Of a stretch of 64,000 nucleotides of DNA, positions 58,150 through 59,282 are shown in pieces; position 1 is the first letter of the stretch, and every line of letters begins with the position of its first letter. The notes under the pieces are model-generated. The model saw nothing but the letters and a program-made list of their open reading frames with translations. It was not told where the DNA came from and did not search any database. Position numbers and translations under genes: made by a program. Source of the stretch: Chloroflexota bacterium (GTDB lineage: Bacteria > Chloroflexota > Anaerolineae > Anaerolineales > Anaerolineaceae); assembly GCA_012522475.1 (NCBI GenBank), contig JAAYKH010000043.1, positions 1 through 64,000 of the forward strand. The letters run 5' to 3'.

Positions 58150-58171
58150 AGACGCTTGTACTCAAGCGTCT
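58150..58171. repeat. Hairpin, left flank of Y1-derived gene: AGACGCTTG-TACT-CAAGCGTCT
   Basis: Perfect 9-bp inverted repeat with 4-nt loop, followed by TGGGGGTGC. Confidence 0.7.
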
Positions 58172-58204: not shown

Positions 58205-58461
58205 TCATTGAAAACGATTAAAAAGCTTTCATCGGCGCCCTGGAAAACGACGCTGCGTGGCTAATCGACCACAGTATAAAACTGCCCTTTTATTAAAGGG
58301 CAAAAAGAACAGGAGCTAAAGCGGCGCTTACAGCGGGTTAACGAACCTGTCGAGAAACTTGGAGATGAGAGGTTGGAACACTCCTTGCAAGGTACCTCTC
58401 ATGCCAACCGGGCGGACTGGCGGGCAGGAGGGCATGCAGTTCTCAGCATAACAAGGATGAT
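58205..58461 (+). other. Candidate structured leader/ncRNA upstream of the Y1-derived gene
   Basis: TATAAT within ccagtataatgat just upstream; hairpins TGCCCTTT-TATT-AAAGGGCA (58283-58302) and ATGAGAGGT...ACCTCTCAT competing with GGTTGG...CCAACC. Confidence 0.35.
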
Positions 58462-59181
58462 GTGGTGACGGAAAAGTCGGACGAGTTTAAAGGAACACAG
58501 GATAATTGGAGTGTTGCACATACAGCACGGTCTGCCCGGACTGACCTTCCTTCAAATCCCTCCTGGCAACCCCTGGAACCGAAAATGACTGGCGAAGATG
58601 ACCTGGCCAGTATTTTCCAGGTGGAGCTGATCGGTAAACGCGCTGAATTAAAAGAAGAACCCCCGCCAGCCCGCCCGGCAGGTTTGGCGCTTACGGGCAT
58701 ACAGGAACACGCCCCCTGCCAACCCGATGAACGACCTGCCTCAATAGATACCTTGGCGGCACTGGCCACCACCGTCTTTGATACAACATTCTATCTGGTC
58801 CCGCGAATGAAGGAACATTATCTTTTAGGAGATCTGGCCCTGGGGTTGCGAACCTGGATGCCAGCTTTGAGTGCGATTTATGGATGGGAATTGGAGCGTC
58901 TTTCAATTCGACCCGATTATCTTAAGTGGACCCTGCTGGATTTTCCCGAATGCCTGACACTGAAAATGCTGGCGATTGTCCGACAGTGGACTTCGCAACA
59001 GATCTTCAAGGCGTTTCCGGCTTTGCGGACTGATCAAAGTTTGAAAGATTTTTGGTCACCTGGCTACCTGGTCGACACGCAAGACCAGGACTTCCCGACC
59101 CAGGTTCTGATTGCGCATGTCTCTCGCGAACGCTCGCCACAAAAGCATGACAATCGGGAAATAAAAAGTCAAATACTCTAA
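58462..59181 (+). CDS. Y1/IS200-like transposase-derived protein, catalytic motifs lost
   Basis: LGLRTWMPALSAIYGWELERLSIRPDYLKWTLLDFPECLTLKMLAIVRQWTSQQIFKAFPALRTDQSLKDFWSPGYLV follows the Y1_Tnp layout, but the HUH position reads PDYLKWT rather than PDHVHLL. Confidence 0.65.
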   Translation: MVTEKSDEFKGTQDNWSVAHTARSARTDLPSNPSWQPLEPKMTGEDDLASIFQVELIGKRAELKEEPPPARPAGLALTGIQEHAPCQPDERPASIDTLAALATTVFDTTFYLVPRMKEHYLLGDLALGLRTWMPALSAIYGWELERLSIRPDYLKWTLLDFPECLTLKMLAIVRQWTSQQIFKAFPALRTDQSLKDFWSPGYLVDTQDQDFPTQVLIAHVSRERSPQKHDNREIKSQIL

Positions 59182-59241: not shown

Positions 59242-59282
59242 CAAGCGTCTGGGTGCCCCCCTCACCCAGGCGTTTGGCTTTT
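59242..59282. terminator. Hairpin, right flank of Y1-derived gene / terminator
   Basis: CAAGCGTCTGGGTG-N7-CACCCAGGCGTTTG (two G-U) then GCTTTT. Confidence 0.75.

Follow-up and report, generated by a model that had tools for sequence, protein, structure and literature searches.

The locus and its Y1 domain

The window, by which we mean the whole 64-kb stretch of DNA that was analysed, contains a gene for a Y1 transposase-like protein whose catalytic residues have been replaced (Table 1). Its neighbours are a divergently oriented lpdA and an RNA methyltransferase gene, and most members of the window's genus, which is Brevefilum-like, have the gene in this position. A Shine-Dalgarno-like element and a predicted sigma-54-type promoter motif are found in front of it, and AAGGATGA, similar to the AAGGA of the window, precedes the start in relatives L003, L004, and L005. 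A half-site, CAAGCGTCT, of the upstream palindrome recurs in the hairpin downstream of the gene. In the 64-kb window the palindrome has no second full copy and CAAGCGTCT occurs at chance level; an association of the gene with hairpins or REP sequences was rejected on these two grounds.

Table 1. Features of the dead-Y1 locus, in positions of the window
Feature	Position	Strand	Basis and remarks
Palindrome AGACGCTTGTACTCAAGCGTCT	58150-58171		upstream of gene
Sigma-54-type -24/-12 promoter motif TGGAACACTCCTTGCA	58374..58389	+	sequence match; predicted
Shine-Dalgarno-like AAGGA	58453..58457	+	sequence; 5′ of GTG start
Dead-Y1 gene	58462..59181 (stop included)	+	239 aa; start is GTG 58462 or GTG 58465, both in frame
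Residual disordered linker of ancestral protein	58462..58770	+	alignment; low pLDDT
Linker motif SWQPL...EDDLASIFQ	58561-58620	+	alignment; kept across the window's genus
Y1_Tnp-like domain	58795..59109	+	Pfam match, aa 112-216
Former HUH site	58918..58926	+	Y153-L154-K155 where His-x-His is expected
Former nucleophilic Tyr position	59116..59118	+	now His219
Inverted repeat, putative terminator-like hairpin	59242..59276	+	downstream of gene

The Pfam model of the Y1_Tnp domain (PF01797) matches the C-terminal part of the window protein with 26.2 bits at a cut-off of 23; the NCBIfam IS200-like profile scores 32.9 on the same domain, below its cut-off of 55. An AlphaFold model, built from 28 sequences, has a confident Y1 domain (pLDDT mostly 80–97) and a disordered N-terminus. 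When this model was compared with the PDB by Foldseek, the best 30 matches were all Y1 transposases, including ISDra2 (the first match, E 1.6e-8, probability 1.00), IS608, a Sulfolobus IS200, and a REP-associated TnpA. The profile built from the family matched IS200-type transposases in the PDB at 6.8e-16. The C-terminal Y1_Tnp layout described in the first-pass annotation is thus borne out by PF01797, the family profile, and Foldseek, and the window domain has the same fold and element order as IS200/IS605 TnpA. The ~90 N-terminal residues, which the same annotation had treated as an added extension, are instead the remaining linker (~90–110 aa) of a larger ancestral protein. Within this otherwise variable linker, SWQPL...EDDLASIFQ is a possible partner-binding motif.

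The segments PDYLKWT and VLIAHVSRE had been read correctly as the altered HUH and tyrosine regions: the catalytic positions correspond to Y153 and K155 (HUH) and to H219 (Tyr), so that neither the HUH motif nor the catalytic Tyr with the third metal ligand four residues on is found in the window protein. Among 96 long members of the family, the first His is replaced by Tyr in 92 and the second by Gln in 89, the third metal ligand is Thr in 82, and the nucleophile position holds Tyr in 72 and Phe in 24. Within the window's genus, the first His is Tyr in all members (11/11), the second is Lys, Arg, or Gln, and the nucleophilic Tyr has given way to His in 8 of 11. At three columns where active enzymes mostly have aliphatic residues, the dead family has a near-invariant Trp. 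One member, L018, has an HUH-like string (RPDHLHW) and carries Phe at the Tyr position. The former catalytic sites now carry near-fixed residues (Y-x-Q-W), and the loss is fixed rather than random.

The window protein differs from IS200/IS605 TnpA in lacking HUH and the third metal ligand, and the nucleophilic Tyr is missing throughout most of its genus. Its gene is present in a single copy in its own genome, where the second match (E 0.1) is unrelated; within the window, neither IS ends nor a repeated hairpin were seen. Two other Y1 proteins are encoded in this genome (L141, G000:C33:17287-17652; L142, G000:C61:13674-14036). Both carry HIH and the Tyr, are RAYT-like and ordinary by comparison, and are distinct from the window protein. 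RAYTs (TnpA-REP) are presented in PMC8266576 as the first domesticated prokaryotic transposase of such kind, and they resemble the window gene in being host-retained, usually single-copy Y1 proteins. They differ from it in having kept HUH and Tyr and in their flanking REP sequences, whereas a search within the window revealed no repeat association. No description of an inactive Y1 TnpA was found in the open-access literature searched; in the census of PMC6006769, sequences without core motifs were set aside as probably non-functional.

Relatives, domain architecture, and the polA neighbourhood

With the window protein as query, matches were obtained in 41 of 61 related genomes. A profile search gave matches in 97 of 150 genomes of the order, a count that includes, among its weakest matches, a few genuine HUH transposases. 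Scanning of contigs across genomes revealed 186 relatives; of the 80 loci kept, nearly all are labelled as Chloroflexota or Anaerolineae groups. More than 100 dead Y1 domains from Anaerolineae were aligned. In a tree, the dead domains form a single clade, separate from the HUH-containing transposases of that class, with branch support of 99 for the clade minus its most basal member and a weak 79 for the whole dead clade. The window's genus is nested inside the full-length proteins. The most divergent class members (L132, L135, and L136) fall with the transposases, on long branches; their shared architecture argues for common descent with the family.

Genomes of family f12 also contain short dead-Y1 paralogs (L165-L176, 144–231 aa) that have neither receiver nor Roadblock. 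Some of these genomes have several, and G330 has four extra copies. They make up another group of dead Y1 genes, either domesticated or mobile.

Outside the window's genus, Y1 forms the C-terminal end of proteins that are mostly 430–960 aa long and consist, in this order, of a receiver-like domain, an MglB-like Roadblock domain, an acidic proline-rich linker, and dead Y1. The Roadblock domain, as modelled, matches the structures of MglB and LAMTOR/Ragulator (E about 1e-6, probability 1.00); in the sequence profile search the top matches are MglB, at a weak E of 0.05. In contrast to MglB and other Roadblock/LC7 proteins, the Roadblock of the orthologs is fused between the receiver-like and Y1 domains, and the window protein itself lacks it. 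The same three domains are present in four members found elsewhere in the class, with Roadblock profile values of 1e-16 to 1e-28.

On the N-termini, Pfam Response_reg scores 17–29 bits in most members tested, with a cut-off of 30.2; it is unreported for some (L020, L016, and L111) and exceeds the cut-off only in L194 and L195 (37.6 and 40.2 bits). When Anaerolineales members were read by eye, the Asp was kept and Lys-Pro-Phe mostly kept, and the acidic metal-binding pair was missing. Such N-termini, with Asp and Lys but no acidic pair, would be pseudo-receivers in the sense of PMC12632262 and would bring these proteins near response regulators with pseudo-receivers. What sets the family apart from those regulators is the Y1 output-like domain, undescribed in the open-access literature searched. 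More generally, no description of Y1_Tnp together with a response regulator or Roadblock was found in the open-access literature searched.

In 62 of the 80 loci, polA is the next gene downstream, in the same orientation. The distance between the two genes ranges from an overlap to about 1.3 kb and is below 200 bp in 45 of these 62. The 18 loci without adjoining polA include eight from the window's genus and two that stop at a contig edge. From other orders of the class, L192 and L193 also have polA next to the gene, with a gap of about 22 bp in L193. One family dominates the 80 loci, so that the adjacency, though strong, does not come from independent samples. The gene was not seen before polA in most other class members or other orders sampled. 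In a class- and phylum-wide check of the region 5′ of polA it was missing at most loci where polA was placed; polA was unplaced in a number of loci, known carriers included, and the check therefore yields no rate.

Two further observations concern this neighbourhood. At L206 (G067), a Roadblock-containing frame lies five bases before polA and Y1 was not seen, which suggests that the polA-linked core may predate Y1, or have lost it. In 51 loci, which make up most of the full-length ones, the gene behind polA, on the same strand and about 3 kb beyond the Y1 gene, encodes a TPR-like repeat protein.

Reduction and selection in the window's genus

The window's genome has its polA elsewhere, on contig C29, preceded by a P-type ATPase. 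Three members of the genus (L033, L035, and L038) have the form Roadblock-linker-Y1 with the receiver absent (Roadblock profile 1e-11 to 1e-7), and in L012 the Roadblock profile matches weakly, at about 1e-3. The window, L003, L004, L005, L008, and L011 have linker and Y1 only. A search by tblastn upstream of the window ORF gave no convincing match to a Roadblock remnant, nor did a query from outside the genus, used without a positive control, reveal a receiver-Roadblock part at any other place in the window's genome. The gene of the window's genus has left polA and lost the receiver, and that of the window's subclade has lost the Roadblock too.

The upstream motif fits the sigma-54 -24/-12 pattern. 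Nowhere else in the 64-kb window is TGGMACN5TTGCW matched exactly; the motif also has GG-N10-GC, and the genome contains rpoN. TGGAACNNNNCTTGCA is present in 10 of 12 genus members (absent from L012 and L014); elsewhere it occurs once in 1.9 Mb of loci, with about 0.2 occurrences expected by chance. In L006, L007, L009, and L010 the motif lies in frame within the ORF and is identical over 16 bases, and in the window, L003, L004, L005, L008, and L011 the surrounding frame is broken and the motif kept. We infer that an internal promoter, once within the ORF, may now drive the shortened gene.

Between reduced forms, dN/dS of Y1 is about 0.10–0.12, with dN 0.13 and dS 1.11 for the window and L032, and dN 0.13 and dS 1.31 for L037 and L011; these are simple Nei-Gojobori counts, with dS near saturation. 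For the linker, dN/dS is about 0.43 between the window and L032. These substitution counts indicate that Y1 is under purifying selection. The gene was not found in G013 and G014, genomes that are 97–98% complete, and is truncated in G011; it is therefore dispensable there and not essential genus-wide. The earlier view of a Y1-derived, catalytically dead protein that was retained, not recently decayed, agrees with the order-wide orthologs, the dN/dS of about 0.1, and the near-fixed replacement residues. The orthologs are not confined to one strain, and recent IS decay is ruled out by them and by dN/dS.

Possible function of the remodelled domain

We consider the ORF to be a selected stand-alone remnant of a receiver-Roadblock-Y1 regulator, with Y1 repurposed, likely as a non-catalytic dimerising or ligand module, and give this reading a probability of roughly 0.6. 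Sequence, structure prediction, and phylogeny support an ancient loss of the DNA-cleaving residues, all of them, from Y1 and its retention for a different role. This role would more likely be that of a non-catalytic module that dimerises or binds a ligand.

The ancestor would have been a Chloroflexota regulator composed of receiver, Roadblock/LC7, acidic linker, and Y1, and encoded beside polA. In the full-length protein the receiver-like domain would take the input, in Anaerolineales probably without phosphorylation, since the acidic metal-binding pair is missing there. The Roadblock would dimerise or contact a partner, e.g. a small GTPase, and the remodelled Y1 dimer would bind a target, for which a protein or small ligand is likelier than cleavable hairpin DNA. 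The process served would be tied to polA. With departure from polA and loss of the receiver in the window's genus, and of the Roadblock in the window's subclade, linker and Y1 would be left, with the sigma-54 promoter for transcription and an internal GTG as the start of translation. A broader proposal, which we advance only tentatively, is that Y1 is the output domain of a class-wide receiver-Roadblock-Y1 regulator acting together with DNA polymerase I or controlling it, and that in one genus the module was released as a separate gene behind the internal sigma-54 promoter.

The domain might instead keep the hairpin or single-stranded DNA binding of TnpA and serve as a non-cutting nucleic-acid-binding regulator or single-strand guard, perhaps in autoregulation or in association with PolI. 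The Y1 fold and the C-terminal helix are retained, the polA neighbourhood would suit such a role, and the long family keeps some basic positions; with these few basic residues, and usually Tyr or Phe, it might still bind nucleic acid. However, the long family has lost about half of the basic positions common to active transposases, and the window's genus has lost still more. The net charge of Y1 is 0 in the window, with medians of +2 in the long family and +5 in the transposase set. The charge and the lost basic positions make hairpin binding less likely, and the palindrome tested is single in the window, with CAAGCGTCT at chance level. We regard this alternative as somewhat unlikely, and the retained hairpin-binding role put forward by the first-pass annotation is not supported.

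It is improbable that the window's genus is in the course of losing the gene, the function of the family having needed receiver and Roadblock, so that the window copy would be a slowly decaying leftover. The receiver and then the Roadblock were indeed lost stepwise, the gene is lost or truncated in several genus members, and the polA linkage is gone. Yet the ORF is intact, Y1 dN/dS is about 0.1 between species already without Roadblock, and both the promoter motif and the Shine-Dalgarno-like site are conserved. The idea of a mutated ordinary IS200 insertion copy, suggested by the IS200-like labels of Pfam and NCBIfam, has a negligible probability given the single copy in the genome, the conserved place in the genus, the loss of HUH throughout the dead clade, the NCBIfam score of 32.9 against a cut-off of 55, and the two genuine Y1 proteins of the genome, which differ and carry HIH.

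Domesticated Y1 transposases are already known as RAYTs; of a lineage-wide family in which Y1 is catalytically dead and fused to signalling domains, no report was found in the open-access literature searched. Pfam and NCBIfam profiles assign the domain to the IS200 transposases, so that a probable host gene may be concealed by automatic annotation. In the window's genus the domains were lost one after the other and an internal promoter was apparently reused. For a phylum with few cultured members, the polA adjacency offers a concrete hypothesis that can be tested.
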